DNA of 37,648 nucleotides from Hyphomicrobiales bacterium (lineage in GTDB: Bacteria; Pseudomonadota; Alphaproteobacteria; Rhizobiales; Rhizobiaceae). Position 1 is the first letter of the stretch; each line of letters begins with the position of its first letter. The DNA lies in the NCBI GenBank assembly GCA_021775495.1, contig JAJFHT010000400.1, forward strand, positions 1 through 37,648, in the 5' to 3' direction. The position numbers and the translations under genes are program-made. A model generated the notes under the pieces. The model saw only the letters and a list, made by a program, of their open reading frames with translations. It did not search any database and was not told the origin of the DNA. Shown piece by piece: positions 1 through 25,136 of this stretch.

Positions 1-710
1 TCGTTCTTGCTGGTTTTATCGATTGGATTTGTCGCAACGTGGCGGCCGTCGCGAAATACCGTCACCCGGTCGCAGATCTGCATGACCTCGTCCATGCGAT
101 GCGAAACATAGAGAATCGAGGCGCCACCTCGCTTCAGTTCATCAATGACGGCAAAAAGCTTTTCAGATTCGCCGCCGGTCAAAGAAGCAGTTGGCTCATC
201 CATGACGAAAAGGCGCACCGGATTGTCTTTGGTGTCGGAGATCGCACTGGCGATTTTCACCAACATCTGGTCACCGGGGCTCAGCCGAGCGATTTTCGTG
301 CCCGGATCGATATGATCGACACCCAATCGTTGGAGCGCCGCCCGTGCATTTTCGTTCAGCCGGTTCCAATCGACCGAAAATCCAAATCTGACAGGATACG
401 GTGTCGCGAGCGACATGTTCTCGGCGACTGATAGATGCGGAACAATGTTGAGCTCCTGGTGGATAAAGCGGAATCCGAGGGCAAACGCATCCTGGGCGTT
501 CCGGAGCGTTGCAGGCGCACCATCGATCTCAATCCGGCAACTGTCCGGAGAAACGATCCCGGCGAGGACTTTGATCAACGTGCTCTTGCCTGCACCGTTT
601 TCCCCCATCAGGGCGTGCACTTCTCCGCGTGCGACGTCAATCGACGCATCGAACAGAGCTTGGGTACGCCCATAGTTTTTGGAAACATTTGAAAGGGCAA
701 GAAACGTCAT
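1..710 (-). CDS. CUT2 sugar ABC transporter ATP-binding protein (RbsA/MglA type), C-terminus beyond window
   Basis: This is the N-terminal 236 residues of a cytoplasmic ATPase that powers uptake by a ribose-type importer; the gene runs off the left edge. The first nucleotide-binding half is visible: Walker A GENGAGKST near residues 36-44, the family's LSPGDQ-type signature, and Walker B RLFVMDEPTASL followed by the H-loop YVSHRMDEV. CUT2 ATPases are normally about 500 residues with two such halves, so the second half and probably the permease lie outside. The ATG at 710-708 is chosen because the fold starts immediately (MTFLALSNVSKNYG); no strong ribosome site is visible. It follows the binding-protein gene by 69 bases on the same strand, so the two are probably one operon. 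The substrate cannot be read from this subunit. Confidence 0.93.
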   Translation of the reverse strand, partial: MTFLALSNVSKNYGRTQALFDASIDVARGEVHALMGENGAGKSTLIKVLAGIVSPDSCRIEIDGAPATLRNAQDAFALGFRFIHQELNIVPHLSVAENMSLATPYPVRFGFSVDWNRLNENARAALQRLGVDHIDPGTKIARLSPGDQMLVKIASAISDTKDNPVRLFVMDEPTASLTGGESEKLFAVIDELKRGGASILYVSHRMDEVMQICDRVTVFRDGRHVATNPIDKTSKN

Positions 711-779
711 GGTCCGACCGGCGGATCCCGAATCAACTACGAGGATGGCCGGCTCGGCCACCCTCACCATCTGATATGC

Positions 780-1712
780 TCATTGGTCTTTGGCGTTTGC
801 CGATGTCACCAGCTTTGTCGGCACATAAATCACCGACGCCTTGATGGTGTCTCCTTTCAACAGACGCGCAACAGCACCGGCGACGCTTTTGCCGATACCG
901 ACAAAGTCCTGGCCGACCGAGGCTTCAAAATTCCCGCCGGCCGCGATTGCATCGCGTGCTTGCGGATTGGCGTCGATTCCGACAATGACAATACCCTCAT
1001 CGCCGCGGCCGGCTGCTTCGATAGCCTGAAGTGCGCCAAGCGCCGGCTGATCCCAGGCAGCCCAAACAGCTGAAATGCTTCCCTTGTCCGGATTGGCGGC
1101 AAGCAGGGCTTCCATCTTGGCGCGGGAGTCGGCGATGCCGCCGTCCTGGACATCCGGCGTGATGCGATCGATGACCTTGATATCGGGATGATTTGCAAAA
1201 ACCGCATCCGCAACAACACCTCGAATCTGCACCGGAGGAAATGCGTCGAATACAAACATGACTACATTACCGGCACCATTGATGCGATCGGCGACATAGA
1301 CCGAGGTTTCTGCCGCCATGGCGTAGCCATTGCTGGTGACATTGGTCGCCAGCAGCGGGTTGGCTGCCGCATCCATTCCGACAACCGGAATACCTGCGGC
1401 CTTTGCGGTTTCAAGACCGGCCGCGACCTGCGCCGGGTCGACATTGATGACAATCGCATCAACCTTTTGCGTCACCGCGTCTTCAATCCGGCTGATAACC
1501 GCGGCTACATCGCCGGCGGTATCAACGACATTCAACTCCCAGCCCTTTACCTTTGCTTCGGCTGTAAAGCCCTCCAGATAAGCCTGCGTGCCCGGCTGCG
1601 CCAGGTAAGGCGTAATGACTGCGACCTTGTCGGCCGCGGCCTGTCCGATCATCAGCGTCATCAAACCCGCGATCACGACCGCAAACCGATTCAATCTCTT
1701 CAAGAACATCAT
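780..1712 (-). CDS. Periplasmic sugar-binding protein of a CUT2 ABC transporter
   Basis: A secreted solute-binding protein of the Peripla_BP_4/RbsB family, 310 residues, that should deliver a sugar-like ligand to the transporter whose ATPase lies just downstream. The N-terminus is a signal peptide (basic MMFLKRLNR, hydrophobic core, probable cleavage after GQAAA near residue 27), followed by the family's first beta strand KVAVITPY. The typical hinge and ligand motifs appear as AVWAAWDQPALGALQAIE and IVGIDANPQA. Two adjacent ATG codons (1712 and 1709) are possible; the GGAGG on the minus strand is better spaced for 1709. It lies 179 bases downstream of the FGGY kinase gene, so it may be in the same operon or have its own promoter. 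Ligand identity is unknown; context suggests the substrate of the kinase and TrpA-like protein. Confidence 0.92.
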   Translation of the reverse strand: MMFLKRLNRFAVVIAGLMTLMIGQAAADKVAVITPYLAQPGTQAYLEGFTAEAKVKGWELNVVDTAGDVAAVISRIEDAVTQKVDAIVINVDPAQVAAGLETAKAAGIPVVGMDAAANPLLATNVTSNGYAMAAETSVYVADRINGAGNVVMFVFDAFPPVQIRGVVADAVFANHPDIKVIDRITPDVQDGGIADSRAKMEALLAANPDKGSISAVWAAWDQPALGALQAIEAAGRGDEGIVIVGIDANPQARDAIAAGGNFEASVGQDFVGIGKSVAGAVARLLKGDTIKASVIYVPTKLVTSANAKDQ

Positions 1713-1821
1713 ATCCTCCCTGTCGATGTTGCCGTTTTCCTGTTCGCCACCCTATCCGAAGCTCAACTCTGTTTTCGAGCCAATCCGCGGAGACGGGGCT
1801 GCTTTCATGCCGTTTTTCGCG

Positions 1822-1866
1822 GAAACTGGATAATACCGACGGCGGACGGACAACCAAATATGTTGT
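1822..1866 (-). promoter_or_regulatory. Candidate promoter and inverted repeat upstream of the binding-protein gene
   Basis: On the minus strand a TTGGTT box and a TATTAT box are separated by 16 bases, with TATTAT at 1835-1830. The upstream edge carries an inverted repeat, ACAAC (1850-1854) and GTTGT (1862-1866), separated by 7 bases. Together they could form a regulated promoter inside the operon. The boxes are only moderate matches. Confidence 0.3.
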
Positions 1867-1891
1867 TCCGGCCGATCATACATCCGATTTT

Positions 1892-3355
1892 TCAAACCGG
1901 CCCAGACAACGGCCGGGCATTGTTGTTTTGATAATAGGTCTGTTTGAAACGTTGGAATTTTGCGTCGTAATGCGCCTTGCGGCTTTTGTCGGGGGTATAA
2001 ACACGATCTATCGAGACCATTTTCGTGAACGCGTCACCCAGGGTCGGGTGAATGCCGCAGGCAACCGTAGCAAGGCCGGCGGCCCCCAATACACCCGGAT
2101 CCTTGACCGACACCCGTTTCAGCACCACCTGCAGAATATCAGCCCTGATCTGGTTCCAGCTGTCCGATTGAAAACCGCCGCCACCGCAATTCAGTTCCTG
2201 CGGCACGAGCGCTGCTGAATTCTGCAATGTTTCCAAAACCCATCGAGCGGAAAAGGCGACACCTTCGTAGACGGCACGCGCCAGTTCAGCCGGCCTTGTC
2301 CCGGCATCAAGATCAAGGAATATGCCGCGCGCATCGGCATCCCAGATTGGAGCACGCTCTCCCTGCAGATGCGGAAGGAACAGCGGCACGCTCCGGTCAT
2401 GTTCACATGTCGAAACCAGCGCGGCCATTGCTTCAGGCGAGATGCCGAGCAATTGGCAACACCACAGTTGTGATGCACCGCCTGATTGCGTCGGACCCAC
2501 ATGCAGCCTGATGTTCTCGCATTTCGGAAACGCTATGACACCCGGCGTCGGTTCAATCGTGTCGGACACAATACCCAGGATTTCGCTGGTACCACTGAGA
2601 TAGAATGCCGCTCCGGGTTCATGGACCCCGACGCCAAGCATCCCGCCCCAGGCGTCCATAGTGCAGATCGCAATGGGCATTCCCGACCCCGGCATGCCGT
2701 TCTGAATACGCCCGGCAATTTCGGTCATGCCTGAAAGTGGGGCTAAGCGGCCCGCAGCACCTTCCACCAGATCGAGCAATCCGTCGACATAATCAAGATT
2801 CTGATTGATCAGCCCAACACTTGAGATTGGATCGGTCGCAACCTTTCCGGTCAGCTTCAGCAGGCAATAGTCCTTCGGCAGCAGAACCTGGCTGGTCTTG
2901 TTCCAGATTTCCGGCCGATGTTCCTGCATCCATTTCATCCGGCTGAGGCAATGGCTGGCGTCGATGGGCAGAGGTGCGCCCCACCATCGCAGGCGATCGG
3001 CATCAGCCACCAGGCCGTCGAGTTCCGCCGCACAGCCGCTGGCCCGGCCGTCTTGCCAGACAATCGCCGGTGCAAGCGGCTGGTGATGCCGGTCGACGAA
3101 TACATGGGTGTTGACCTGCGAGCACAGGCCCATTGCTCTTACCCTTTTGAGGTCAAACGCACTGCCGAACTGCTCCAGCGCGGCAATGATGTTGTTCACC
3201 CAGTCGTCCGGGTTCTGCTCGACAATGCCACCGCTTTTTCGCTGGGTCGGGTACATCGAGGAATATCCGTCGAGCACGTTTCCTTCAGAAGAAAACAGCA
3301 TCGCCTTGACGGACGTCGTACCGACATCCACCCCGATGATCAGATCCTCAGCCAT
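1892..3355 (-). CDS. FGGY-family carbohydrate kinase (xylulokinase-like)
   Basis: A 487-residue cytoplasmic ATP-dependent sugar or polyol kinase of the FGGY family. Seen: the N-terminal phosphate loop DVGTTSVKAML (residues 10-20), the central TMDAWGG whose Asp234 matches the catalytic base, LPHLQGERAPIW (near 327-338) typical of xylulokinase-like members, and the adenosine-binding GGGG at 391-394. Length is normal for the family. The frame stays open further upstream, but ATG 3355 has a near-perfect ribosome site (AGGAGGG, 6 bases before) and starts directly at the fold; this start overlaps the end of the TrpA-like gene by 8 bases, so the two are translationally coupled. Inferred role: phosphorylating the sugar imported by the neighbouring transporter. 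FGGY kinases act on xylulose, ribulose, glycerol, erythritol and others, and the exact substrate cannot be read from the sequence. Confidence 0.93.
   Translation of the reverse strand: MAEDLIIGVDVGTTSVKAMLFSSEGNVLDGYSSMYPTQRKSGGIVEQNPDDWVNNIIAALEQFGSAFDLKRVRAMGLCSQVNTHVFVDRHHQPLAPAIVWQDGRASGCAAELDGLVADADRLRWWGAPLPIDASHCLSRMKWMQEHRPEIWNKTSQVLLPKDYCLLKLTGKVATDPISSVGLINQNLDYVDGLLDLVEGAAGRLAPLSGMTEIAGRIQNGMPGSGMPIAICTMDAWGGMLGVGVHEPGAAFYLSGTSEILGIVSDTIEPTPGVIAFPKCENIRLHVGPTQSGGASQLWCCQLLGISPEAMAALVSTCEHDRSVPLFLPHLQGERAPIWDADARGIFLDLDAGTRPAELARAVYEGVAFSARWVLETLQNSAALVPQELNCGGGGFQSDSWNQIRADILQVVLKRVSVKDPGVLGAAGLATVACGIHPTLGDAFTKMVSIDRVYTPDKSRKAHYDAKFQRFKQTYYQNNNARPLSGPV
1897..1916. repeat. Small GC-rich hairpin at the 3' end of the kinase gene
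   Basis: CCGGCC and GGCCGG form a perfect 6-bp stem around an 8-base loop, within the last codons of the kinase. On the minus strand it is followed by TTTGAAAAAT, which is not a convincing T-run. It may be a weak terminator or RNA-stabilising hairpin before the binding-protein gene. Confidence 0.3.
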
Positions 3356-4124
3356 CAAGAGCCCTCCTGACACTCGCCAGATAAGCTTCAAGGCACGAGG
3401 CACTTTGCAGGCTTGCGGCGACCACTTTGGAACCGATGACCACGCCGTCCGCGCCGCTGTCAATGGCCTGCCGGCATTGATCCGCGGTACCGATGCCGAT
3501 TCCAAGCAGGATCGGCTTGCTCACCCCCGCTGCGCGAAGTTTTGCCACCCGCGCAGCAGCAGAGCTGTCAAATCCTTCGTAAAGGCCGGTTTTGCCATTC
3601 GTGCATTGCAGCATGACATAGCCGGTCGCCTGTACGGCCTGCCGCACGTCGCTGGCATTGCAGGCATAGGGAACGAAAACGGTACTGCGCACACCGGCAT
3701 TTCTTGCTGCCAGTTCAATTTGCGCTTTACTCTCCGATCGTGTTTCAGGTGCGCACATCAGTGCATCAATCCCGCGCCAGTTGCCGTCAACCGCGCTGGC
3801 AAGGAATGCATCCGATGCGTAGGCAAAGACCAATCCGGCCATGCGGCCGTTAAATGTCTCAAGGCGCGCGACTGCCGCCCCTGCATCACACAGTATGCCG
3901 TTGCCGGTGGATCTCCACATTGATTGCCGAATGATCTCGCCATCAAGATAAGGATCATCTGACCGGATGCCGATTTCCACGATGTCGACCCCGCAGGATG
4001 CAAACACATCGAGCATTTCAACAGGCACCAGAGGATCACCGGCGGGAAAATAGCAGACGAGGACTTTCGGATGGGCGATCAGGGCACTGGTCAGCCGATT
4101 TTGTCCTGCGGAATAATGATGCAT
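3348..4124 (-). CDS. Tryptophan synthase alpha-chain-like (TrpA-fold) protein in a sugar operon
   Basis: A 258-residue TIM-barrel protein clearly related to TrpA, which cleaves indole-3-glycerol phosphate to indole and glyceraldehyde 3-phosphate. The match is to active-site features: VEIGIRSDDPYLDG carries Glu50 and Asp61, equivalent to the catalytic Glu49 and Asp60 of Salmonella TrpA. The phosphate-binding loops are also recognisable: CTNGKTG (174-180), GIGIGT (208-213) and GADGVVIGS (224-232). No trpB, trpF or trpC is near; the gene is fused by overlap to an FGGY kinase and follows an AraC regulator. I infer an aldolase-type step on a phosphorylated sugar derivative rather than tryptophan synthesis. 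The start is unsettled: ATG 4124 and TTG 4130 both lack a ribosome site, while a well-placed ATG at 4143 lies out of frame. Confidence 0.85.
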   Translation of the reverse strand: MHHYSAGQNRLTSALIAHPKVLVCYFPAGDPLVPVEMLDVFASCGVDIVEIGIRSDDPYLDGEIIRQSMWRSTGNGILCDAGAAVARLETFNGRMAGLVFAYASDAFLASAVDGNWRGIDALMCAPETRSESKAQIELAARNAGVRSTVFVPYACNASDVRQAVQATGYVMLQCTNGKTGLYEGFDSSAAARVAKLRAAGVSKPILLGIGIGTADQCRQAIDSGADGVVIGSKVVAASLQSASCLEAYLASVRRALDG

Positions 4125-4154
4125 ATGCAAAGGAATGCGTCATATCGAATACCT

Positions 4155-4169
4155 CATCAACAATTGATG
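4155..4169. promoter_or_regulatory. Candidate operator upstream of the TrpA-like gene
   Basis: CATCAA and TTGATG form a perfect 6-bp inverted repeat around CAA, 31 bases upstream of ATG 4124, in the short gap after the AraC gene. The position fits a regulator site overlapping the promoter. No convincing -35/-10 pair could be assigned. Confidence 0.35.
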
Positions 4170-4251
4170 TTCAGTATTTCCGTATGCCGTGACGATCTTC
4201 GCAATATCCGGATAAAACCCGCACGATCAGGACTGTATCTGACACCTGTCT

Positions 4252-5280
4252 TCAAGAATTTTTCAGCGTTGCTGATGGCCGCTCTCCGAACGCCTCATAG
4301 TAATATCTGGAAAAACGCCCCATGTGATTGAAGCCGCAACTGCCGGCAATTTCAGCAACGGATGAAGTTCCCCGCTTCAACCGGCTTCTTGCCTTCTTGA
4401 GTCTTTGTTCAAGCACATATTGCATCGGAGCCTGCCCGATGAATTGCTTGAAACCGTCAAACAGGGTCCGCTCGCTTGTCCCGGCGACCCGCGCCAGAAC
4501 CGATATGGAAAGATCTGATTGCAGGTTGTCGCGAATGTGCTGCACACAGCGTCTCACATGTCGCGGACGAACCTGCAAATGTTCGCTGTCGATCCTGCCC
4601 AATCCATTTCGTTCGAAATCACTGAACAGCGCATCAATAACAGCACCTGAAAGTGTGGTCTTTTCAAATCCCCAATCCGGCTGATTCACCGAATGCCGGA
4701 ACTCGTTCAGCAACTGCAGCATAAGATTTCGAATGCGCCAGCCCGACGGCGTGCTGAGATCGAGCGAGGGATGGAAGGATGGCCATGTATCATCATCGTC
4801 TTCAAGACCGGAACGCCAGCGCCGGATAAGGCTGTTTTTGTCGATCTTGAGCATGATCTGGGTCGTGCCGGGTCGCCAGTAGGAGGTGAATTTCCGGCCC
4901 GGCGAAAGAATTGTCGCCATGTCCGGCCTGGATCGGTAATTCGAGGAGCCGATGGCAATGTCGGTTCCGCCTGACAGTGGCATCTCCAGCATATAGAAGT
5001 TCTCGAACGCACCCGGATCGATCTCCACTCCTGCGCCGTATTGCAGAACATTAAAGCTGCCTTCCGGTACATCGGCACAAGCATGTCGAAAATCGAATCG
5101 GTCTGGTTCGCTGACACAATTCAGTTCATGGCGTTTGAACCGGTGTGTCATGATGTGCCGGGCTTTATCCCGGTCTCTGGTCGACACCGCACCAATGGCG
5201 GAATTCAGCATCGGCCAGGGACGAGGTACACCGAGGTCATCGTTCAGATCAGCAATGGCAAGCTCATGACGATCGTCCAT
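4252..5280 (-). CDS. AraC-family transcriptional regulator
   Basis: A 342-residue DNA-binding regulator. The C-terminal 100 residues form the AraC double helix-turn-helix: LSISVLARVAGTSERTLFDGF for the first and SSVAEIAGSCGFNHMGRFSRYY for the second, ending in FGERPSATL. The N-terminal part (about residues 40-220) resembles the cupin-like AraC_binding_2 sensing domain, with a RPGTTQIMLKID strand. It is divergent from nothing and lies upstream of the TrpA-like and kinase genes on the same strand, with 127 bases between, so it most likely controls this sugar pathway. Its own upstream region holds a striking 28-bp palindrome and a second inverted repeat. ATG 5280 gives a full-length protein; the ribosome site is weak. 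The inducer is unknown. Confidence 0.92.
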   Translation of the reverse strand: MDDRHELAIADLNDDLGVPRPWPMLNSAIGAVSTRDRDKARHIMTHRFKRHELNCVSEPDRFDFRHACADVPEGSFNVLQYGAGVEIDPGAFENFYMLEMPLSGGTDIAIGSSNYRSRPDMATILSPGRKFTSYWRPGTTQIMLKIDKNSLIRRWRSGLEDDDDTWPSFHPSLDLSTPSGWRIRNLMLQLLNEFRHSVNQPDWGFEKTTLSGAVIDALFSDFERNGLGRIDSEHLQVRPRHVRRCVQHIRDNLQSDLSISVLARVAGTSERTLFDGFKQFIGQAPMQYVLEQRLKKARSRLKRGTSSVAEIAGSCGFNHMGRFSRYYYEAFGERPSATLKNS

Positions 5281-5421: not shown

Positions 5422-6798
5422 TCAGCGCCGCATGAAGTTCAGAACACCCCACACGCTGACCGGATCAACCCGAACTCCGGCTTTGTAGGTTTCTATATGC
5501 ACATGTGGACCGGTCGACAGGCCGGTATTGCCCATGGTCGCGAACGGCGTGCCCTTTTTTATCCGGTCGCCGGGTTTGACCATGAAACCATCAACATGGG
5601 TGAACCAACCGACAACGCTATCGGAAAATTGAAGAACCACCGCTTTGCCCCAGCGCCAGTTGCCGCGAAACTGATCAGCAGTCTCCAACACCACGGCGTC
5701 ATCAGGTGCCAGGATCGGCGTACCGAGAGGCGCGGCAACATCGACGCCGGTATGATCGCGCTTGCCTTTTCGTTTGATACCGTAGGACGATGTCACCCAG
5801 CCACCCTCGATGAACGAGGTCGACTTCTTGGTCGCCCCCTCCGATGACATGGTCAGAGCCGAAAAGCTTCCGATCAGCGTCAGAACGGCGACACCGGCAT
5901 GCAGGGTCAGCCGTCTGGAGCGCCGGGTCGGCAGACCAAACCCGCCATTCAGAATTTTGGACACGCGCATTTTCTGACTCCTCAATTTGTGTAGCGAAAA
6001 CGGTACGGCAAGTGGGTTCGCCTTCACTCCGGCGGCAAATCGAAGCGCGGCAAGCAAAGTCTCCGCGTAGGATTTTCGAACATCTGCAGTCGCACATTGC
6101 AGAACTTCCGCGTCGGCTCGTAGTTCACAGGCCTGATGCCAGCGCGAAACAAGGTCACGCAAAAACGGGTTGAACCAGAACAGTGATCTGATCAGCGACA
6201 GAAGAATGCCGACGGTGGGATCACTCCGGCGCAGGTGTGCCTCTTCATGCGCAATGATCAGATTGATCTGTGCCGATGACAACCGACGCATCAATGCCAC
6301 CGGAATGACAATGACCGGACGCCATCCTCCTGCAGCAAATGGTGCAATGGCGCGGTGGGTTGTCGATATTGGCCAGCGGGACTGATGCGCGCGAAGAGGC
6401 AAAGCGCCGTCCACACATTCCCGCAATCGGCGCCAGGCAAGGCCAAGTCTGACCAGATGAACGATCACTCCGGCCAAATAAACCGGCAGAACAGTCGATG
6501 AAATCCAATCAAACTCAAACAGACCTGCATCAGTGGCAAATGATGTGATCGGGGCTGTGAGCACCATGATTGTGTCATGAGCTCCGCCAGGGGGGGAAAA
6601 TGACGCGTCCGAACCAGACACAGGAAAGCCAATACCACTGGCCGCCAGCACACTCGGCAGCACCAACACTGCCAGAAACGCCAGAAACGTTGATGGGTGA
6701 AAATGCACCGATCGCCCATGCGGTGCGATCGCCAATGAAATCAGCCAGACGACCGCGCCCCAGATCAAGCTGAATAGGATTACCATTGTCGGGGTCAT
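5422..6798 (-). CDS. Membrane M56 (BlaR1-like) protease fused to an M23 murein-peptidase domain
   Basis: A 458-residue fusion. Residues 1-310 are BlaR1/MecR1-like: membrane helices near 4-24, 37-55, 102-122 and 300-316, and the cytoplasmic zinc-protease motif HEEAH at 184-188 with ELRADAE (225-231) supplying the third ligand. Residues about 335-450 are a periplasmic M23/LytM domain with HTGVD (His349, Asp353), THVDG (His401) and GPHVHIE (His432, His434), the full zinc and catalytic set. In BlaR1 the outer domain binds beta-lactams; here a peptidoglycan-binding or cutting domain takes its place. The start codon overlaps the stop of the BlaI-type repressor gene (ATGA), as in bla and mec regulatory pairs. 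I infer that it senses or processes the cell wall and inactivates the repressor by proteolysis. M23/M56 proteins are known as an architecture, but I know of no functional description. Confidence 0.9.
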   Translation of the reverse strand: MTPTMVILFSLIWGAVVWLISLAIAPHGRSVHFHPSTFLAFLAVLVLPSVLAASGIGFPVSGSDASFSPPGGAHDTIMVLTAPITSFATDAGLFEFDWISSTVLPVYLAGVIVHLVRLGLAWRRLRECVDGALPLRAHQSRWPISTTHRAIAPFAAGGWRPVIVIPVALMRRLSSAQINLIIAHEEAHLRRSDPTVGILLSLIRSLFWFNPFLRDLVSRWHQACELRADAEVLQCATADVRKSYAETLLAALRFAAGVKANPLAVPFSLHKLRSQKMRVSKILNGGFGLPTRRSRRLTLHAGVAVLTLIGSFSALTMSSEGATKKSTSFIEGGWVTSSYGIKRKGKRDHTGVDVAAPLGTPILAPDDAVVLETADQFRGNWRWGKAVVLQFSDSVVGWFTHVDGFMVKPGDRIKKGTPFATMGNTGLSTGPHVHIETYKAGVRVDPVSVWGVLNFMRR

Positions 6799-7160
6799 TT
6801 TTTCTGGTCTTCGTCCAGAAGACGTTCGAGTTGCTCCAGTTCTTCAGGGCTGAGCAATTTGCTGCCGCCAAACGACGATGCCGGCAACGGGCCATCGATC
6901 TCGAGCACCGCCCGGGTGAACTGCCGGGTCAGGGCCGCCAGTGTGGAGACCTTGCCGATGCCGGCGCGGTAGATCCGCACGCCATGGCGTTCATCGGTTT
7001 TCAGCATTCCCTTCTCGACCATGCGGTCAATGGTCTTGCGAGTCGACGACAGCGACCAGTCGAGACTGTCCGCAATACGTTCGTGCAATTCCCGGGCGCT
7101 GAGCTCCGGTTCGGACCACAATGCTTTCAAGAGCGGCAGTTCGCTTGGGGACGGTTTCAT
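6795..7160 (-). CDS. BlaI/MecI/CopY-family transcriptional repressor
   Basis: A 121-residue winged-helix repressor. The fold begins at MKPSPSELPLLKALW and continues through LSARELHERIADSLDWSLS and TRKTIDRMVEKGMLK, the usual recognition helix and wing of the BlaI family; the C-terminal part should dimerise and be the target of the partner protease. The frame is open to a TTG at 7220, but ATG 7160 matches where family members start. Its stop overlaps the start of the M56-M23 gene, so the pair is one operon. It probably represses its own promoter through the operator-like repeats just upstream. The other target genes are unknown; none nearby is a beta-lactamase. Confidence 0.92.
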   Translation of the reverse strand: MKPSPSELPLLKALWSEPELSARELHERIADSLDWSLSSTRKTIDRMVEKGMLKTDERHGVRIYRAGIGKVSTLAALTRQFTRAVLEIDGPLPASSFGGSKLLSPEELEQLERLLDEDQKK

Positions 7161-7181
7161 GTCGGAAAGGTTCTCGTGTGA

Positions 7182-7210
7182 TACATGTCGCAATGATACG
7201 ACACTTGTCG
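7182..7210. promoter_or_regulatory. Candidate BlaI-type operator
   Basis: CGACACTTGTCG (7199-7210) is a CGACA/TGTCG inverted repeat with a 2-base centre, and TACATGTCG (7182-7190) is a related half. ACATGTCGCA and ACTTGTCGCA repeat the same pattern 18 bases apart. BlaI-family operators are typically TACA-N2-TGTA-like dyads, so this pair lying 22-50 bases before the repressor start is a good fit for autoregulation. Confidence 0.5.
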
Positions 7211-7263
7211 CACGAGTCAACAGGCAAGACCCGGCGCCTCAATTTTTTCCCGAAAAGACTGTA

Positions 7264-8211
7264 TTAACGCCGCTGTCCGGAGGCGCTGATACCGACAGCG
7301 GCCAGGATGATCAGCCCGGTGGTCAGATCACGGAAAAACGGATCCGCGTTCAAAATATTGAAGCCGTTATTGATCAGCGCCAGCAGCAGTACCCCGGCGA
7401 CACTCCGCCAGACCGCACCGGATCCACCATAGATGCTGGTACCACCGAGAATGACCGCCGCAATCGCCTGAAGCTCCATACCGATTCCCGCACCCGGTTG
7501 CCCCATCGAGATCCGCGATACCGAGATTGCTGCCGCCAGGCCTGCAGCCATGCCGGCGATGGCAAAGGTCGCGATCTTGATCCGGTTGGTGCGGATACCG
7601 GACAGAATTGCGGCTTCCTCATTGCCGCCAACGGAAAACACCTTGCGGCCAAAGGCTGTGCGGCTGAGGACGAAAGAAAAGAACAGCGCGAAAGCGACCA
7701 TCACGATCACCGCGATGAAGATGCCGCCGATCCGGTCGCGGCCAAGCCAGGTGAATTCGGCGATTCTGACCGGGATCAGCCGGCCATCGGCAATCAGTAT
7801 GGCAACACCCTTGAACACCATGCTGGTGGCAATGGTCGCCAGAAACGAATGGATGTTCAGGCTGGTGATGATGGTTCCATTGATGACGCCGAGTCCGAGC
7901 CCGATAAAAGGTGCGATCGCCAGGCCCAGGAACGGGTCGACATTCAACGCAATCCATGCCGCTGAAACACCCGCAACAGCAAAGATCGAGCCGACCGACA
8001 GATCAAAGCCGCCGCCGATTATCACCAGGGTCATGGCACTTGCCATGATTGCAAGTGGCGCATTCTGGTTAAGAATATTTTGCAGGTTTCTGAATGTCAG
8101 AAAGCTGTCGCTGAGGAAGCTGAGCGCGACGATCAAAACCGCGATCATGATCAGGACGGCATAGGCCTGAAAAAACCGTGCCAGCCGTGCGGACGATAGC
8201 GATTGAGTCAC
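7264..8211 (-). CDS. CUT2 ABC transporter permease (RbsC type)
   Basis: A 315-residue inner-membrane permease of the BPD_transp_2 family with about 8-10 hydrophobic segments. The hallmark stretches are visible: TLVIIGGGFDLSVGSIFAV (near residues 60-78), the cytoplasmic GRKVFSVGGNEEAAILSGI coupling region, and the ILGGTSIYGGSGAVWRSV loop. The GTG start overlaps the stop of the ATPase gene (GTGA), so the two are translationally coupled. It is the last gene of the five-gene leftward operon with binding protein, hydantoinase subunits and ATPase. Family members move pentoses, autoinducer-2 and other small polar ligands; here the hydantoinase genes suggest a cyclic amide or related nitrogen compound, which is inference. 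Confidence 0.93.
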   Translation of the reverse strand: MTQSLSSARLARFFQAYAVLIMIAVLIVALSFLSDSFLTFRNLQNILNQNAPLAIMASAMTLVIIGGGFDLSVGSIFAVAGVSAAWIALNVDPFLGLAIAPFIGLGLGVINGTIITSLNIHSFLATIATSMVFKGVAILIADGRLIPVRIAEFTWLGRDRIGGIFIAVIVMVAFALFFSFVLSRTAFGRKVFSVGGNEEAAILSGIRTNRIKIATFAIAGMAAGLAAAISVSRISMGQPGAGIGMELQAIAAVILGGTSIYGGSGAVWRSVAGVLLLALINNGFNILNADPFFRDLTTGLIILAAVGISASGQRR

Positions 8212-9779
8212 TGAGCGGCGCTCCCCTGTTCGCTGCTGTTCAAATCATCGGGATGAAACAGGTTCCACAGAACCTGCTTTGTCGTGGTTTTATCCGTGTC
8301 GACTTCATCGATCAGCCTGCCTTCATGAACCAGATAGGCCCTGTGCGCGAGACCGAGAACCTCTTCGATCTCTGATGAGATCAGCAGGACAGCAGTGCCT
8401 TTTTCCGCCAGATCGGCAATTGCTTCGTGGATGCGCTGACGTGCGCCGACATCAACACCACGACTTGGTTCGTCAAGAATGACGATCTTCGGGTTACGCA
8501 TCAGCCATTTGCCCAGCAGCGCCTTCTGCTGGTTGCCGCCGGAATAAAACGGTATCTCTCCGTCGACATTGGCCGGCGTGATACCGAAATAGTCGATCTG
8601 TTCCCGCACGCTGCTTTTTTCTGCGCCGGTCTGGATAATCCCGCCCGCAACACTGAAATGGTCCAGGTGCGGCAGGGTCATGTTCGCCCTGACCGGCAAG
8701 CTCATCACCAGGCCCTGTTTGCGCCGATCTTCCGGCACCATGACGATTCCACGGTCGGCAGAGCGTGCCGGTGAGCGTTCGTCATAAGGCCGACCGCCAA
8801 CCTCGACGCTGCCGGCAGTTGCCGAATCCGCGCCAAAAATAGCACGGGCGATTTCCGAGCGACCGCTGCCAACCAACCCGATCAGGCCTACGATTTCACC
8901 GGCGCCAACCGCCAATGAAACATCCGAAACCCCACTGGATGAAGTGAGATTTTCCACCTTGAGGATAACCTCGGTACTATCCGGTTCATGCACGTTTTTG
9001 GGTGGATACGGCGTTTCTGCCCGGTCGCCGCCGAGCATCGCCGAAACCAGCGAACCTTTTGTCTCGTCAGCCGCATCGCCGGTGCGCACCAGTTGGCCGT
9101 CGCGCAAAACGGTGATCCGGTCGCACACTGACAAAATGTCATCAAGGAAATGCGAGACGTAGATGATTGTCTTGCCGGCCTCGCGCAACCGCAACATTGT
9201 CTCATGCAATAGTCCGGCTTCATCTGCCGTGAGCGACGACGTCGGCTCGTCCATGACGATGACCCGGGCATCCTGCGCCAGTGCCCGCATGACCTCGATT
9301 TTCTGTTGATCGGCGATTGAAAGGCCGGAAACGATGGCTGCGGGATCAAGCTGGAAACCGCAGGCTGCCATGACGTCCGCCAGCCGGGCATTCTCAGTCC
9401 CGGCGAGAATGCCGAATCGCCGCTCCTCAATGCCAAGAAAGACATTCTGGGCAACGCTGAGAGCCGGAACCAGCTGCAGTTCCTGGTGCATCATCGCCAC
9501 ACCGCTGGCCAGTGCGACCGGAGGGCTCCAGTTCCTGGCAGGTTCACCGAAAACTTCGATCTCGCCTGTGCTGGCAGAATAATACCCACCAATGATCTTG
9601 CCGAGCGTGGATTTACCCGCGCCGTTCTCACCGATAAGGCCGTGAATCTCGCCGGCAGCAATATCCAGATCAATGCCACCCAGCACTTCGACGCCACCGA
9701 ACGATTTGCCGATCCCCCGCAGTCGGATGCATGGCTCGTTTTCGACGGTTTCTTGTGCCGCGCCCTGCATCTCAGGCAC
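8208..9779 (-). CDS. CUT2 ABC transporter ATP-binding protein (RbsA type)
   Basis: A full-length 523-residue ATPase with two nucleotide-binding halves. The first half has Walker A GENGAGKST, signature LSIADQQ, Walker B VIVMDEPTSSL and H-loop YVSHFLDDI. The second has the degenerate Walker A GLVGSGRSE that is usual in this family, signature YSGGNQQK and Walker B IVILDEPSRGVD. It energises the adjacent permease. The GTG at 9779 is 2 bases after the hydantoinase B stop; ATG 9770 is an alternative, and neither has a clear ribosome site, which suggests translation by coupling to the gene before. Placing hydantoinase genes between the binding protein and the ATPase shows transport and hydrolysis are expressed together. 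Confidence 0.94.
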   Translation of the reverse strand: MPEMQGAAQETVENEPCIRLRGIGKSFGGVEVLGGIDLDIAAGEIHGLIGENGAGKSTLGKIIGGYYSASTGEIEVFGEPARNWSPPVALASGVAMMHQELQLVPALSVAQNVFLGIEERRFGILAGTENARLADVMAACGFQLDPAAIVSGLSIADQQKIEVMRALAQDARVIVMDEPTSSLTADEAGLLHETMLRLREAGKTIIYVSHFLDDILSVCDRITVLRDGQLVRTGDAADETKGSLVSAMLGGDRAETPYPPKNVHEPDSTEVILKVENLTSSSGVSDVSLAVGAGEIVGLIGLVGSGRSEIARAIFGADSATAGSVEVGGRPYDERSPARSADRGIVMVPEDRRKQGLVMSLPVRANMTLPHLDHFSVAGGIIQTGAEKSSVREQIDYFGITPANVDGEIPFYSGGNQQKALLGKWLMRNPKIVILDEPSRGVDVGARQRIHEAIADLAEKGTAVLLISSEIEEVLGLAHRAYLVHEGRLIDEVDTDKTTTKQVLWNLFHPDDLNSSEQGSAAQ

Positions 9780-9781
9780 TG

Positions 9782-11494
9782 TCAGGCAGGTAAACGTGGC
9801 TCTGAGGCTGCTTCGTCAACGGTCAAATCCTCGGTTATCGAAACACCATATTGGTCTCTTGCTGCCTGCTTCGATACCAATCCCTGACGCACATCGGCAA
9901 GCACTTCAGCGAACGGACGCGCTTTTGCGTTGCCAAAACCGCCACCACCGCCGGTCGTTGTCTCGACAATCGTCCCCGCTTCAAATCCGCGCGCCCGCAT
10001 TTTCAACGGGTGCTCTACGGTTCCATCGGCAAGAGTGATCGTGTTCACCGGGCCTTTGCCGTCACTGCCGCCTTTCAGCCCCCATGCTGTGGTCTTTGAC
10101 CTTTCGAACCACAACGCTCCGAAACAATCTTCCAGCAACTTGTAGGTTCTCACCACACCGCAGCCGCCGCGCCAGCGCCCCGGCCCGCCGGAATCCTGGC
10201 GGATCGAGAATTCCTCGATCCGCACCGGGAATTTGGTCTCATAGACTTCGGCGGGAATGTTACGAAAGCCGCCATTGACCAGATTGACCAATGCGCTTTG
10301 CCCATCCGCGCCGACACCACCACCCCACCCCCCAGCGGTGGGCTCGATCGAAATCCATTGTCCACGTTTTTCGTCCATTGAGAAAAACGCCGCAACCATG
10401 GAATCGCCGTAGTGTGCAGCTTTGGCTTTTTCCGGCATGGCCTCGCTCATACACGAGATCATCAGGTCGGCGAGAAGTCCGAGCCCGGTGAAATACCATT
10501 CGCAAGCCGCCGGTTCCTTTGCATTGAGCATGCATTCGTCCGGGATCTTGACCGTCATCGTTTCAAACGATCCGCCGGTGATGGCGCGTTCCGGATTGAT
10601 CATTGTCTTGTAGGCCAGCCGTAACAGAGATCTTGTCTGAACCGCACCGCAATTGATCGATCCAAGCACCGGGCCCGATGTCCCGGCCAGGTCGATGATC
10701 ATGCGTTCGCCGTCGATGGTCAGCGACATCGCGACCTTTACCGGATCACTACCGACGCCGTCATCGTCCAGATAACCTTCGCGGCTGTAGGTACCATCGT
10801 TCAATGCGCCGATGGCCTCACGGTCAAGTCGCCGCGCTTGTTCGAAGATATTGTTGCAAGCATCGCGGTAGGTCTCGATTCCGATCCGGTTGAGCAATTG
10901 TCCCAGCCGTTTCTGCCCGGTGCGGATCGAGGCAATCTGCGCATTCAGATCGCCGATCGACATATCCGGCATACGCGTGTTGCGCTTGAGCAGGTCGTAC
11001 CATTCCTCGATCGGTTCGAACGCTTTGACAATCCGTGTCGGGCCAAGCCGAAGACCCTCGTGATATATTGACGTCGAGCCCATGGTCGAGCCGGGATCAA
11101 TCGCCCCGATATCATTCCAATGTGCGCGCGCGGCGCCAAAACCGACCAATATTCCCTCATGGAAAATCGGCCCTACGGCAGTGACGTCATGCAGATGCGT
11201 TCCCTGCAGATAACTGTCATTGAGGACAAATATGTCCCCTTCGGCCATGTCGTCTCCATAACGCTCCTGGACCAGGTGAACACAGGCATCAATGGCGCCG
11301 ATGAACAGCGGTACGCCGGTGGACTGACCAAGCATGTTGCCCTTTTCATCAAGCAGGGCCACGGCACTGTCACGGCCCTCGTAGATGACGGCGGAGAATG
11401 CCGAGCGCCAAAGCGAAGCGTTCATGTCCTCGGCACAGGAGATAACGAAATTTCTGACCACCTCAGTGGTGATGGGATCAGCCTTGCCGCTCAT
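9782..11494 (-). CDS. Hydantoinase B/oxoprolinase family protein, HyuB-like subunit
   Basis: A 570-residue protein of the hydantoinase_B family, the partner of HyuA in ATP-dependent opening of cyclic amides such as N-methylhydantoin or 5-oxoproline. Seen: the N-terminal DPITTEVVRNFVISCAEDM, GDIFVLNDSYLQGTHLHD (typical NDPY/GTHLxD region), GGWGGGVGADGQSA and the C-terminal FPVRIEEFSIRQDSGGPG and TTGGGGGFG stretches. Length is normal for the family. Its ATG overlaps the HyuA stop (ATGA), matching an obligate two-subunit enzyme. It sits between the binding protein and ATPase of a sugar-type ABC transporter. The true ring substrate is not readable; hydantoin, N-methylhydantoin, oxoproline, acetophenone-carboxylation-like or caprolactam-type reactions are all known in the wider family. 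Confidence 0.93.
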   Translation of the reverse strand: MSGKADPITTEVVRNFVISCAEDMNASLWRSAFSAVIYEGRDSAVALLDEKGNMLGQSTGVPLFIGAIDACVHLVQERYGDDMAEGDIFVLNDSYLQGTHLHDVTAVGPIFHEGILVGFGAARAHWNDIGAIDPGSTMGSTSIYHEGLRLGPTRIVKAFEPIEEWYDLLKRNTRMPDMSIGDLNAQIASIRTGQKRLGQLLNRIGIETYRDACNNIFEQARRLDREAIGALNDGTYSREGYLDDDGVGSDPVKVAMSLTIDGERMIIDLAGTSGPVLGSINCGAVQTRSLLRLAYKTMINPERAITGGSFETMTVKIPDECMLNAKEPAACEWYFTGLGLLADLMISCMSEAMPEKAKAAHYGDSMVAAFFSMDEKRGQWISIEPTAGGWGGGVGADGQSALVNLVNGGFRNIPAEVYETKFPVRIEEFSIRQDSGGPGRWRGGCGVVRTYKLLEDCFGALWFERSKTTAWGLKGGSDGKGPVNTITLADGTVEHPLKMRARGFEAGTIVETTTGGGGGFGNAKARPFAEVLADVRQGLVSKQAARDQYGVSITEDLTVDEAASEPRLPA

Positions 11495-13524
11495 GTTGCA
11501 CTCTCCGTCTTGGTCAGGGACAAATTACCGCCACCGATCACATCAGCCTTCCAGCCCGGCGGGACGAGCGTTGTTGCCGTACTCTCCTCAAGGATTGCCG
11601 GTCCAACCGTCGTCGACCCGACAGACAATCCGATGCGATCGATTATTGCTGTTTCCTGTTCGACACCGCTGAAATACACCTTGCGTGAACGTGGAGCGGC
11701 GCCTTTGCCGACTTCCGGATCAACGCTGTCCGGCCGGTCAAGTCTCCCGATTGCGGAGACACGCAGATTTGCGATTTCCACTCGCGCATCCGGACTGGAA
11801 TGGCCGTATTGCCGATCATAGGCTTCATCAAATGACGAGCGGACCGCCGCCATGTCGATCGGACCTTTCGGGAAGGAAATCGTCAGCACATATTCCTGAC
11901 CGTGATAACGGAAATCGGCACTGCGTTCGAAGTCGATCGCGCTGTCGTCCACTCCTTCATCTGCAAGATGTTCACGCCCCCTGGCTTCCAGCGCAACAAG
12001 CCGGCTTTCCAGGTCCTCCACCTTGAACTGATCCCAGAACCCATAAAGAGTTTCCTTGAAATCGTGCCGGACGTCGGTCTGCAGCATGCCCCATGCCGAG
12101 AATGCCCCGGGGTGAACCGGCACAATGACTTCAGCTATCTCCAGTTCTTCCGCCAGCGCCGCAGCTTGCGCCGGGCCTGCGCCACCGAAAGCCACAAGGG
12201 AAAAGTCGCGTGGATCGATGCCACGACGAATGGTAATCGTCCGGATGGCGTCGGCCATCTTGGCGTTGATGATATCAATGATGCCCTGGGCCATTTCCTG
12301 GGTGCTCATTTTGAATTGCGCGCCCATTTCTCCGACCGCTTTTTCGGCCAGTTTGCGGTCCAGTTGCAACGCGCCGCCGGAAAAATTCGCACCATCCAGC
12401 CGTCCCAGCACAAGGTTGGCGTCACTCACGGTCGGTTCGGTTCCGCCCAGTCCATAACAGGCCGGCCCGGGTTTGGAGCCGGCTGATTGCGGCCCGACAC
12501 GGGCAGCGTCTGCTTCAACCCAGGCAATCGAACCACCGCCAGCACCGATCACGTGAATGTCGACAACTGACATCTGGATCGGCAGTCCTTCCAGTTTGGT
12601 CTCTGTCGATGCAGATGGAAGCCCGTCAACGATCAGGCTCGCATCGAATGATGTACCGCCCATATCAACACAAATCAGGTTCTGGCGACCGGTCATCTCG
12701 GCCAGTGCGCGACCTCCGATGGCGCCGCCAACCGGGCCAGAAAGCAGCGTCTGCAGTGGCATCTGACTGGCCGAGGCGGCTGTCATCACGCCGCCATTTG
12801 ATTCCATTACATGCAGGTCCTGGCCCTTGGGCAGCCTGTCTTTCAGCTGGCCGACCAACGTTTCAAGGTAGCGCCGGACAACTGGTGCGAGGTAACCGTC
12901 CATCACCGTTGTCGAGGTGCGTTCAAACTCCCGCCACTCCGGCGAAATCTCGTGTGAAAGCGCGATCGATACACCCGGAAGACGCTCGCGAAGATAGGCC
13001 GCTGCAGCAAGCTCATGCTCGGGATTGCGGAAGGCAAACAGCAGGCAGATAGCAATTGCCTCGTAACCGTTCTGCTTCGTCGCCTCGACTAGTGCATCAA
13101 GTTCACTGACATCGATCGGCGTTACCACTTCGCCGTCGGCGGCGATCCGTTCTGAAATGGTGAATGTGTCTTCCAGAGCCACAAGCGGTTCGGGTTTGTT
13201 CCAGCGAATGGAAAAAATCTCACCGCGGTCATTGCCCTGGATGGTGTAGATATCGCGGAAATTTTCTGTCGTCAGCAGCGCCATTTTGGCACCGCGCCTT
13301 GTCAGCAAAGCATTCAGGCCAACGGTCGTGCCATGGACAAAAAAATCAATTTGCGCATCTGGTGAAATTGCAGATTGAATGCCCTCAATGACCGCAAGAG
13401 CCGGATCCTCGGGTGTCGACAGGATCTTTGCCGCACCACAGACGCCGGTCTGGCTGTTTTGAAAGACAATATCAGTGAATGTCCCGCCAATGTCAGCGGA
13501 GACTCGGTAATGGGTCGTAGCCAC
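11491..13524 (-). CDS. Hydantoinase A/oxoprolinase family protein, HyuA-like subunit
   Basis: The ATP-binding partner of the HyuB-like subunit. It begins with the actin-like nucleotide motif YRVSADIGGTFTDIV, has a hinge LICVDMGGTSFDASLIVDG, and the conserved FGGAGPAQAAALAEELE followed by VPVHPGAFSAWGML, all diagnostic of the Hydant_A_N and Hydantoinase_A domains. About 677 residues from the GTG at 13524, which has a GGAA nearby; a TTG at 13542 would add six residues and lacks a ribosome site. A strong hairpin separates it from the binding-protein gene upstream, a common way to give the binding protein higher expression. The pair should hydrolyse ATP while opening a cyclic amide in the cytoplasm. 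I did not assign a substrate. Confidence 0.93.
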   Translation of the reverse strand: MATTHYRVSADIGGTFTDIVFQNSQTGVCGAAKILSTPEDPALAVIEGIQSAISPDAQIDFFVHGTTVGLNALLTRRGAKMALLTTENFRDIYTIQGNDRGEIFSIRWNKPEPLVALEDTFTISERIAADGEVVTPIDVSELDALVEATKQNGYEAIAICLLFAFRNPEHELAAAAYLRERLPGVSIALSHEISPEWREFERTSTTVMDGYLAPVVRRYLETLVGQLKDRLPKGQDLHVMESNGGVMTAASASQMPLQTLLSGPVGGAIGGRALAEMTGRQNLICVDMGGTSFDASLIVDGLPSASTETKLEGLPIQMSVVDIHVIGAGGGSIAWVEADAARVGPQSAGSKPGPACYGLGGTEPTVSDANLVLGRLDGANFSGGALQLDRKLAEKAVGEMGAQFKMSTQEMAQGIIDIINAKMADAIRTITIRRGIDPRDFSLVAFGGAGPAQAAALAEELEIAEVIVPVHPGAFSAWGMLQTDVRHDFKETLYGFWDQFKVEDLESRLVALEARGREHLADEGVDDSAIDFERSADFRYHGQEYVLTISFPKGPIDMAAVRSSFDEAYDRQYGHSSPDARVEIANLRVSAIGRLDRPDSVDPEVGKGAAPRSRKVYFSGVEQETAIIDRIGLSVGSTTVGPAILEESTATTLVPPGWKADVIGGGNLSLTKTESAT

Positions 13525-13555
13525 GGTAATGTTTCCGATCAAAGCAGATGAAAAG

Positions 13556-13580
13556 GGCGAAGGCCGTTTTGGCCTTCGCC
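13556..13580 (-). terminator. Intercistronic hairpin between binding protein and hydantoinase A
   Basis: GGCGAAGGCC and GGCCTTCGCC form a perfect 10-bp stem around a 5-base loop, followed on the minus strand by CTTTTC. It lies 14 bases after the binding-protein stop. With only a short T-run it is likely a partial terminator or RNA-protecting hairpin that keeps binding-protein mRNA in excess. Confidence 0.65.
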
Positions 13581-13593
13581 AGCGAAGAGCTGC

Positions 13594-14589
13594 TTACTGC
13601 TCCCACTCACCAACGAAGTTGGGGTCAGCCTTCAGAACCGCCGCATCGATGATCGGAGGTTTCGGGCCGACGATGTCCATATTGATGTATTCTGGAACAT
13701 CCTGACCCTTGATCGACCTGACAACCACGTCGAGCGCGAACCGTCCCATGGATTTCGGGAAATAGGCCAGGGTCGCGTCCCAACGGCCTTCGCGGATCGC
13801 ATCGATAGCGATATTCGCTGCACCACCGCCGGACAGGAAGACATCGGCAACCTTGTAGCCCGCTGATTCAAGAGCGATTTCGACACCGACAAGATGCTGA
13901 TCGGCATTGGACAGAACAACATGCACGTCTGAGTTGGCCTGAAGGATATCGGTCATCGCGGTCAGCGATACGTCCGGGCTGTAACTGCCCTCACCGGTGG
14001 CCACGACCTTGATGTTGTCGTGCTTGTCCAGCACCGAGCGGAACGTCTCGTAACGCAGATTGTCGAACGGGAAAATCAACTGCCCGATCATGATCACCAC
14101 GTTGCAGGGATTGCGATCCTTGCAGACTTCCACGACCTCGCCGGCCTGCTCACGGGCACCATCAGCCGGAGGCGATGCGACCGTCGACGTGATGCCCTTG
14201 ACCTGGCGTTTCAGCGTCGTGAGGTCCGGGCCAATCGGAAACAATGTTGTAACCAGCGGCTTGCCGGCAGCTCCCACCTGTTCGACAGCACCGGCAATAC
14301 CGACCGTGTCGTTTGCAGCCAGGACAAACCCGTCGAATTTGCCGCTGGCGAGAACGTCTTCGATCTGACTGTACTGGTGCGCAGCGTTGAACTGCCCGTC
14401 GTAGATTTCGGTTGTGATACCGCCAATCTGTGCGGCCTTTTCTTCAATCCCGGCATAGATCGCCTGATTGAAGCCGTTCTGCGACGAGGCCGCGAAGAAC
14501 GCAATCTTGAGGTCCTCTGCCTGAACGCTTGCCACTCCCAGCGCAAACACTGCCCCAGCAGCGAGAAGCTTACCTACCGTTTTTAGCAT
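13594..14589 (-). CDS. Periplasmic substrate-binding protein of the hydantoinase-locus ABC transporter
   Basis: A 331-residue secreted binding protein of the sugar-binding Peripla_BP_4 family. MLKTVGKLLAAGAVFALG with cleavage after SVQA near residue 24 forms the signal peptide, followed by DLKIAFFAASSQNGFNQAIYAG, the usual first strand and helix. ASGKFDGFVLAANDTVG is the typical mid-domain strand. The ATG at 14589 is preferred over longer starts because GGGAGAGAG sits just upstream and the signal peptide begins there. It is first in the leftward operon, with the divergent GntR gene across a 172-base gap that contains an inverted repeat. The ligand is unknown; the fold says sugar-like, the neighbours say cyclic amide. 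Confidence 0.92.
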   Translation of the reverse strand: MLKTVGKLLAAGAVFALGVASVQAEDLKIAFFAASSQNGFNQAIYAGIEEKAAQIGGITTEIYDGQFNAAHQYSQIEDVLASGKFDGFVLAANDTVGIAGAVEQVGAAGKPLVTTLFPIGPDLTTLKRQVKGITSTVASPPADGAREQAGEVVEVCKDRNPCNVVIMIGQLIFPFDNLRYETFRSVLDKHDNIKVVATGEGSYSPDVSLTAMTDILQANSDVHVVLSNADQHLVGVEIALESAGYKVADVFLSGGGAANIAIDAIREGRWDATLAYFPKSMGRFALDVVVRSIKGQDVPEYINMDIVGPKPPIIDAAVLKADPNFVGEWEQ

Positions 14590-14653
14590 GATCTCTCTCC
14601 CGATTTGTCCGGATCCACAACCCGGCAAATTTTTATCGACCGGATCAGACTAG

Positions 14654-25081: not shown

Positions 25082-25096
25082 CGTCGCATCTCCTGT

Positions 25097-25106
25097 TGAT
25101 CGATCA
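25097..25106. promoter_or_regulatory. Small palindrome before the FAH-family gene
   Basis: TGATCGATCA is a perfect 10-bp palindrome with a central CG pair, as in LacI-family operators, immediately upstream of the gene's ribosome site. It could be a target of the adjacent LacI protein. Short length makes chance possible. Confidence 0.3.
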
Positions 25107-25120
25107 TGTCCGAAAATTGC

Positions 25121-25136
25121 CGGGCTGATCTGCCCG
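25121..25136 (-). terminator. Weak hairpin after the aminotransferase gene
   Basis: CGGGC and GCCCG form a 5-bp stem around six bases, followed on the minus strand by CAATTTTC. It begins just after the aminotransferase stop and may end the oxidoreductase-aminotransferase transcript partly. The stem is short. Confidence 0.35.

Follow-up and report, generated by a model that had tools for sequence, protein, structure and literature searches.

A kinase and TrpA-like lyase operon in bacteria as a candidate route for the catabolism of indolyl polyols

The stretch of DNA considered here, called the window, comprises 37,648 nucleotides from a Hyphomicrobiales bacterium (contig JAJFHT010000400.1 of assembly GCA_021775495.1). 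Near its start it carries a small operon in which the gene of a stand-alone TrpA-like protein, termed TrpA1, runs directly into the gene of an FGGY-family kinase, next to an importer of the CUT2 (ribose) type. This operon of a kinase and a TrpA-like protein is conserved but rare in bacteria. Judging by sequence, there is about an even chance that it serves to degrade an aromatic C-linked polyol, most simply indole-3-glycerol. Three features together point to an indolyl polyol: the mostly hydrophobic pocket of TrpA1, the presence in related operons of a second TrpA (TrpA2) with a TrpB that has lost its pyridoxal phosphate (PLP) lysine, and the co-occurrence of the operon with an indole monooxygenase. 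The protein families concerned are known; the arrangement and its role were not found described. A literature search by titles and abstract openings, with most subscription journals and bioRxiv outside it, returned no description of the kinase and TrpA-like pair or of a lysine-less bacterial TrpB, which is weak evidence of novelty.

The TrpA1 and kinase gene pair and its spread

The features of the operon in the window are the following:

4252..5280, (-) strand: AraC-family regulator, upstream of TrpA1; best NCBIfam profile AndR, at 130 bits against a cut-off of 350
3348..4130, (-) strand: TrpA1, predicted stand-alone TrpA-like retro-aldolase; Pfam Trp_syntA, 87 bits, E 1.3e-24
3348..3355, (-) strand: 8-base overlap ATGGCTGA, between the kinase ATG (3353-3355) and the TrpA1 stop (3348-3350)
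1892..3355, (-) strand: FGGY-family kinase, XylB-like, below the XylB equivalog cut-off
780..1712, (-) strand: CUT2 (ribose-type) periplasmic binding protein, with a homologue in 13/14 named loci
3..770, (-) strand: N-terminal half of the CUT2 ATPase, its gene cut by the contig end

AndR is a regulator of anthranilate dioxygenase. The nearest solved relatives of the binding protein are various sugar-binding proteins, which name no ligand for it. The original prediction for this locus had claimed a complete TrpA active site, an 8-base overlap with an FGGY kinase gene and a place between an AraC regulator and a ribose-type transporter, and all three claims are borne out by the sequence. TrpA1 begins at a TTG at 4130 or an ATG at 4124, the ATG being likely, and the equivalents of the catalytic residues Glu49 and Asp60 of E. 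coli TrpA are Glu52 and Asp63 counted from the former or Glu50 and Asp61 from the latter. In E. coli numbering, Glu49, Asp60, Tyr102 and the phosphate-site residues T183, G184, G213, G234 and S235 are kept in all 15 TrpA1 proteins, that is, in the window and in the 14 named loci described below. The ring pocket is non-polar or aromatic at Y22, M/F100, L/M127, F/L153, F/I212 and V/I232. By contrast, the residues of TrpA that contact TrpB, which we take to be P53, D56 and D130, are only partly retained: Asp130 is lost in 15/15, and the window protein has P53R and D130P with D56 kept. With P53 and D130 changed and no trpB encoded beside it in the window, TrpA1 does not look like a TrpB partner.

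Profile scores, structure and phylogeny also set TrpA1 apart from housekeeping TrpA. Each of the three TrpA1 proteins scored falls below the TIGR00262 trpA equivalog cut-off of 102.35 (window 84.9, L062 86.5, L068 68.2). Sequence search of the PDB gave maize BX1, an indole-glycerol-phosphate lyase, as the best match of the window protein, and BX1 also heads the Foldseek list for its AlphaFold model (mean pLDDT 89.8) with a TM score of 0.81, in an E-value tie with the tryptophan synthase entry 8b08 (TM 0.80). BX1 works without a TrpB partner. It shares with TrpA1 the TrpA fold and the catalytic Glu/Asp pair, and it is biosynthetic (benzoxazinoids), whereas TrpA1, whose own lyase activity is predicted, goes with a kinase and an importer and differs by Y175M and L177Q. 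Stand-alone lyases of indole-3-glycerol phosphate (IGP) are also spoken of in the accessible part of PMC12727527. In a tree of 95 TrpA sequences, the 15 TrpA1 and a distant homologue from genome G523 lie across one branch (support 100/99) from canonical TrpA and from TrpA2, the latter forming a clade among the canonical TrpAs; the tree is midpoint-rooted and drew a program warning, the window and Sphingomonas sequences being on long branches that meet. The canonical TrpA comparison set numbered 66 sequences, and one of its members (L096) has Gln at the Leu177 equivalent, a residue otherwise typical of TrpA1.

Membership of the kinase in the FGGY family is clear from its two Pfam domains (FGGY_N, 122 bits against a cut-off of 28.8; FGGY_C, 99.9 bits against 27), which it shares with XylB and GlpK. 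It reaches 256.2 bits against the XylB equivalog, whose cut-off is 380.25; in all it matched 12 NCBIfam models and reached the cut-off of none. The probable substrate is a polyol bearing a bulky aromatic group at one end. The overlap with TrpA1 takes the form ATGNNTGA in 15/15 loci examined (the window and L056-L069).

The pair is conserved but rare. Among 199 genomes of the same family, that of the window and four others match TrpA1 with E-values of 3e-45 or lower; the remaining matches listed have 25-34% identity and E-values of 8e-17 or higher, as canonical TrpA does. Three of 397 genomes sampled from the order, namely G474, G523 and that of the window, match with E-values of 1e-30 or lower; the four same-family matches are absent from these hits, being either outside the sample or missed, as at most six candidates were scored per genome. 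When the window protein alone served as query, a scan of named genomes gave no relative. A profile built from six TrpA1 sequences (five relatives and the window; set A3) recovered 14 loci from the named GTDB collection, five of which are taken as identical to G116, G014, G112, G474 and G159. The carriers are two Rhizobiales isolates (AFS011520 and AFS022961), Xaviernesmea rhizosphaerae, two Martelella species (M. mediterranea and M. limonii), Rhizobium setariae, Mesorhizobium ephedrae, Devosia equisanguinis, an Ancalomicrobiaceae metagenome-assembled genome, Phaeobacter sp. HF9A, two assemblies of Pacificibacter marinus, Sphingomonas formosensis and Marinicella sp. W31 (record name). In the last of these (L061), the genes of the kinase and the ABC transporter appear to be split over several frames and TrpA1 groups with Martelella, which makes the name or the assembly quality of the record doubtful.

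The kinase gene directly follows TrpA1 in 14/14 named loci, counting the broken kinase of L061. Binding protein, ATPase and permease are present in all but Sphingomonas (13/14), and the lysine-less TrpB and TrpA2 in all but Xaviernesmea (L058; 13/14). An AraC homologue lies upstream of TrpA1 in 11/14 and downstream of the kinase in L068; at L058 and L059 none was found at E 1e-8. The search for conserved kinase and TrpA-like pairs that the original prediction had called for is thus answered by the 14 named loci, the window and a distant, likewise adjacent pair in G523. At that locus (L049:9404-14152), a TrpA-like gene, an FGGY kinase gene and a short-chain dehydrogenase/reductase (SDR) gene run in one direction, with a divergent regulator upstream that we take to be SorC-like; the set may represent a related route that acts on another substrate. 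Among 20 genomes of its family, the TrpA-like gene of G523 was found in G523 alone. In class and phylum samples (385 and 398 genomes, which overlap, again with at most six candidates scored per genome), nothing apart from the window exceeded 137 bits with profile A6; the match with this score, in G1125, belongs to a canonical trp operon and was rejected as a relative. Plasmid searches by tblastn with TrpA1 and the lysine-less TrpB gave no match of at least 60% identity among the matches listed (40 of 122 records for TrpB); those with annotation read trpA or trpB, and many have none.

The genome of the window seems to hold a six-gene version of the operon. The two halves of the CUT2 ATPase are complementary, reference residues 2-230 lying in the window and 236-496 at the end of another contig of the same genome, C73 (L120), where the C-terminal half is followed by a CUT2 permease and then by a YCII-domain protein and other genes. 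The start of the window and the end of C73 showed no exact overlap in the range of 10 to 200 bases, so the adjacency of the two contigs rests on the complementary gene halves. If the two contigs adjoin, the order would be AraC regulator, TrpA1, kinase, binding protein, ATPase and permease. Relatives carry their TrpB-like and TrpA-like genes beyond the transporter genes, which is the point where the window contig ends. The original prediction had stated that no trpB or other trp gene is present; this holds for the window, where no trp gene besides the TrpA-like one was recognised among the open reading frames scanned, but not for the operon family, with its TrpA2 and TrpB in 13/14 loci. A separate trpA next to trpB, whose presence it had asked about, exists as a canonical pair on contig C153 of the same genome, and the TrpA-like gene of the window is therefore a paralogue and not the housekeeping gene.

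TrpA2, the lysine-less TrpB and indole monooxygenase

The TrpB protein encoded with TrpA2 no longer has the key catalytic residue. The PLP lysine (E. coli Lys87) is replaced by Tyr in 13/13 sequences, Asp305 by Ala or Ser in 13/13, Glu109 by Asp in 12/13 (Phaeobacter keeps Glu) and His115 by Asn in 12/13, and Lys167 is lost in 13/13. Glu350 and Lys382 are kept throughout (13/13), as are the three glycines of the phosphate loop in 12/13, Sphingomonas having Asp at the first. Two of these proteins were scored against the TIGR00263 trpB equivalog (cut-off 392.45): that of L062 (10409-11593) passes at 399.7 and would therefore be labelled tryptophan synthase beta by automatic annotation, and that of Sphingomonas (L068) fails at 324.5. 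The TrpA2 of L062 likewise passes TIGR00262 (199 against 102), in contrast to TrpA1. TrpA2 keeps Glu49, Asp60, Pro53, Asp56, Tyr102, Asp130, Tyr175 and Phe212 in 13/13; its changes are Gly234 to Ala (12/13) and Ser235 to Thr (10/13). A second TrpB match at 39-42% in each of G116, G014, G159 and G474 is taken as their canonical TrpB. The structure model of the lysine-less TrpB was poor (mean pLDDT 65) and was set aside.

A precedent exists in plants, where, according to the accessible part of PMC12727527, TSA gives free indole when activated by a TSB-like pseudoenzyme whose Glu109 and Asp305 equivalents are changed. By analogy, the lysine-less TrpB would be an allosteric pseudoenzyme that activates TrpA2 in a TrpA2-TrpB complex. 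The same two positions are changed in eudicot TSB-like and in the bacterial protein, but the plant residues given there (Ala, Ser or Pro, mostly Ala, and Glu) are not those found here (E109D, D305A/S). The bacterial protein has moreover lost the PLP lysine (K87Y) and, unlike its plant counterpart, is encoded beside its own TrpA2 in an operon with a kinase and, in most loci, an importer. With its differing residues it may be a bacterial case of such a pseudoenzyme reached independently.

The third feature is a flavoprotein monooxygenase of the StyA family. Its gene and an SDR gene adjoin the operon in L060, L065, L067 and L069, a flavin reductase gene is also visible in L060, L067 and L069, and in L060 and L067 these genes run in the same direction into those of AraC, TrpA1 and the kinase. 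The flank monooxygenases match PDB entry 7z4x at 617-629 bits, against 122-151 bits for 3ihm and 9qi9, which are named styrene monooxygenase. The title of 7z4x reads only putative oxygenase flavoprotein; it is presumably the indole monooxygenase VpIndA1 of Variovorax. An indole monooxygenase fingerprint, S46-Q48-M50-V/I73-I76-A96, is given in the part of PMC13101512 that was available. The monooxygenases of the operon genomes have S46, Q48, V73 and I76 in 11/11 and M50 in 8/11 (Gln in the other three); A96 was not seen, query residue 96 being K, R or L, with a possible shift in numbering. The gene set resembles the iif genes of indole oxidation, which, in the accessible part of PMC4577076, comprise an SDR (iifB), an oxygenase (iifC), a flavin reductase (iifD) and an AraC regulator (IifR). 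There, however, indole is supplied from outside, whereas here it would come from TrpA-type cleavage.

Indole monooxygenase is present in 11/14 operon genomes at E 1e-169 or better, the genome of the query counted, and in 7/279 genomes sampled from the order of the window at E 1e-100 or better. Fisher tests against the latter gave p of about 4e-13, or 6e-11 for 9/12 when the query genome and one of the two Pacificibacter assemblies were left out, but the genomes are not independent and the Phaeobacter, Pacificibacter and Sphingomonas members fall outside the order used as control, both of which weaken the test as an argument for indole. Restriction to Hyphomicrobiales, assigned from record names with W31 placed by tree position, gave 2.5e-10 for 8/10 and 4e-9 for 7/9 without the query genome. 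In Sphingomonas, a few kb past TrpA2, there are an SDR of the same NCBI subfamily as the flank SDRs (PRK08265) and a gene resembling flavin-containing monooxygenases, whose best model is trimethylamine monooxygenase (89 against 675); indole oxidation by bacterial enzymes of that type is known, as stated in the accessible part of PMC6962290.

Two other genes were considered as clues to the substrate, one for a cyanuric acid amidohydrolase (L041) and one resembling methionine gamma-lyase (L048), but the flank genes common to at least three loci include neither, and both were discounted on that ground. The former lies by the operon end in G116 (L041:44-2078), where positions 44-1138 score 441.5 with the AtzD model (cut-off 360) beside a divergent gene of presumably IclR-like type.

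Proposed pathway and alternatives

The scheme that we favour begins with import of the polyol by the CUT2 transporter. The FGGY kinase would then place a phosphate on the terminal hydroxyl of the glyceryl side chain. The product, a compound resembling indole-glycerol phosphate, would be cleaved by TrpA1 in a retro-aldol reaction into glyceraldehyde 3-phosphate and indole. In most relatives, TrpA2, with its canonical TrpB-contact residues, would be activated by the lysine-less TrpB and add a further IGP-lyase activity, from which free indole would be released in place of tryptophan. In many relatives, indole would finally be oxidised by indole monooxygenase with the SDR and flavin reductase. 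The AraC regulator would sense the substrate or indole, and the two lyases may differ in the diastereomer or chain length that they accept. The substrate and all activities are thus deduced, from gene content, order and overlap, the catalytic residues, the loss of Lys87 and the co-occurrence of indole monooxygenase. That all this amounts to a dedicated bacterial pathway for C-linked indolyl polyols, with an importer, an 'indole-glycerol kinase' and TrpA-type lyases, most lineages having a lysine-less TrpB solely as TrpA2 activator, with free indole oxidised and tryptophan synthase run for catabolism as an independent counterpart of plant TSB-like, has in our view somewhat less than an even chance of being correct. 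As for the claim made at the outset, that a kinase phosphorylates an imported sugar or polyol and the TrpA-like protein then cleaves it, the sequence of kinase and retro-aldol reaction with a triose phosphate product stays the best mechanism; a plain sugar as substrate is what the mostly hydrophobic pocket, TrpA2 with its lysine-less TrpB, and indole monooxygenase speak against.

Several observations weigh against an indolyl substrate. The assembly of the window's genome (94.9% complete) yielded neither a lysine-less TrpB nor a TrpA2, and indole monooxygenase is absent from that genome, so that the last two steps would be absent there and the indole part is extrapolated to it; its TrpA1 is, besides, only 35-42% identical to its relatives in alignment set A7. 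For this bacterium the logic of kinase and lyase holds, and the identity of the aglycone is least secure: tryptophan salvage is possible, as is a different aromatic ring. Elsewhere, the monooxygenase is absent from the genomes of L061, L062 and L068 (3/14) and adjoins the operon in only 4/14 loci, from three species. The three flank monooxygenases scored reach 208-217 bits against the NCBI StyA cut-off of 550, and their naming as indole enzymes depends on the fingerprint and on the presumed identity of 7z4x. Anthranilate dioxygenase AndAc was found over its cut-off in 0/47 genomes (15 operon genomes including the window's, and 32 others), so the fate after indole cannot be traced by that route. 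The literature searches made returned no report of indole-3-glycerol as a growth substrate, and the part of PMC2447367 that was available holds nothing on excreted indole-3-glycerol. Finally, Y175M and L177Q are fixed in the ring pocket (15/15), as is T24P; the first two could mean another aglycone or a polar group.

Part of this evidence favours plain sugar or polyol catabolism, in which the kinase would act on an imported ketose or a polyol-derived ketose and the TrpA-like aldolase would yield glyceraldehyde 3-phosphate and a small carbonyl compound. A CUT2 sugar-type transporter with an FGGY kinase would suit it, L177Q places a polar residue in the pocket, and the pair of G523, a genome that like the window's lacks indole monooxygenase, is accompanied by an SDR and a SorC-like regulator, which also fit sugar catabolism. 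We nevertheless consider this explanation unlikely, if by no means negligible: the remaining ring pocket is mostly non-polar or aromatic, the nearest solved relative of TrpA1 is BX1, and a plain sugar leaves no role for TrpA2 and the lysine-less TrpB (13/14 loci) or for indole monooxygenase (11/14 operon genomes). Its remaining weight comes mainly from G523 and Gln177. Tryptophan salvage appears improbable. Here imported indole-3-glycerol would be rephosphorylated to IGP and cleaved, and canonical TrpB would turn the indole into tryptophan, as the canonical trpBA and the missing indole monooxygenase of the window's genome would allow. The fuller operons, however, add a lysine-less TrpB incapable of making tryptophan by the known mechanism, their genomes mostly carry indole monooxygenase, and AraC control with a dedicated importer would suit catabolism better. 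It is more improbable still that the operon releases free indole from the cell's own IGP, as in eudicots, with TrpA2 and the lysine-less TrpB diverting IGP for signalling or pigment while transporter and kinase serve something else. The plant TSB-like precedent, the canonical contact residues of TrpA2 and the indoxyl or indigo that indole monooxygenase could produce all agree with such a diversion, but the constant core of the operon is TrpA1 and the kinase, and TrpA2 and the lysine-less TrpB are missing from L058 and from the assembly of the window's genome.

Other genes of the window and significance

Beyond the operon, the window holds a second CUT2 importer (permease 7264-8211, ATPase 8208-9779, binding protein 13594-14628). 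Genes for HyuA/HyuB-type hydantoinase/oxoprolinase subunits (9782-13542) run in the same direction within this cluster (7264-14628), their best NCBIfam model being caprolactamase, below its cut-off. Between the two transporter clusters, at 5422-7220, lie a BlaI/CopY-like repressor and an M56 plus M23 peptidase protein. Further on, at 24242-30496, a large POR/DUF6537 protein, presumably indolepyruvate ferredoxin oxidoreductase, is encoded beside an Lrp/AsnC regulator, a class I/II aminotransferase and an FAA hydrolase, a possible cluster for aromatic amino acid degradation.

If the proposed pathway is right, homologues of TrpA and TrpB would gain a catabolic role. The lysine-less TrpB would be a bacterial tryptophan synthase pseudoenzyme which, its PLP lysine gone in 13/13 and one of the two proteins scored passing the trpB cut-off, would be misannotated. 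It would also offer a direct test of how little of TrpB suffices to switch TrpA on, and the kinase and lyase would make a compact pair for freeing indole from a polyol precursor. For Alphaproteobacteria, indole-linked polyols would then be a class of nutrients.

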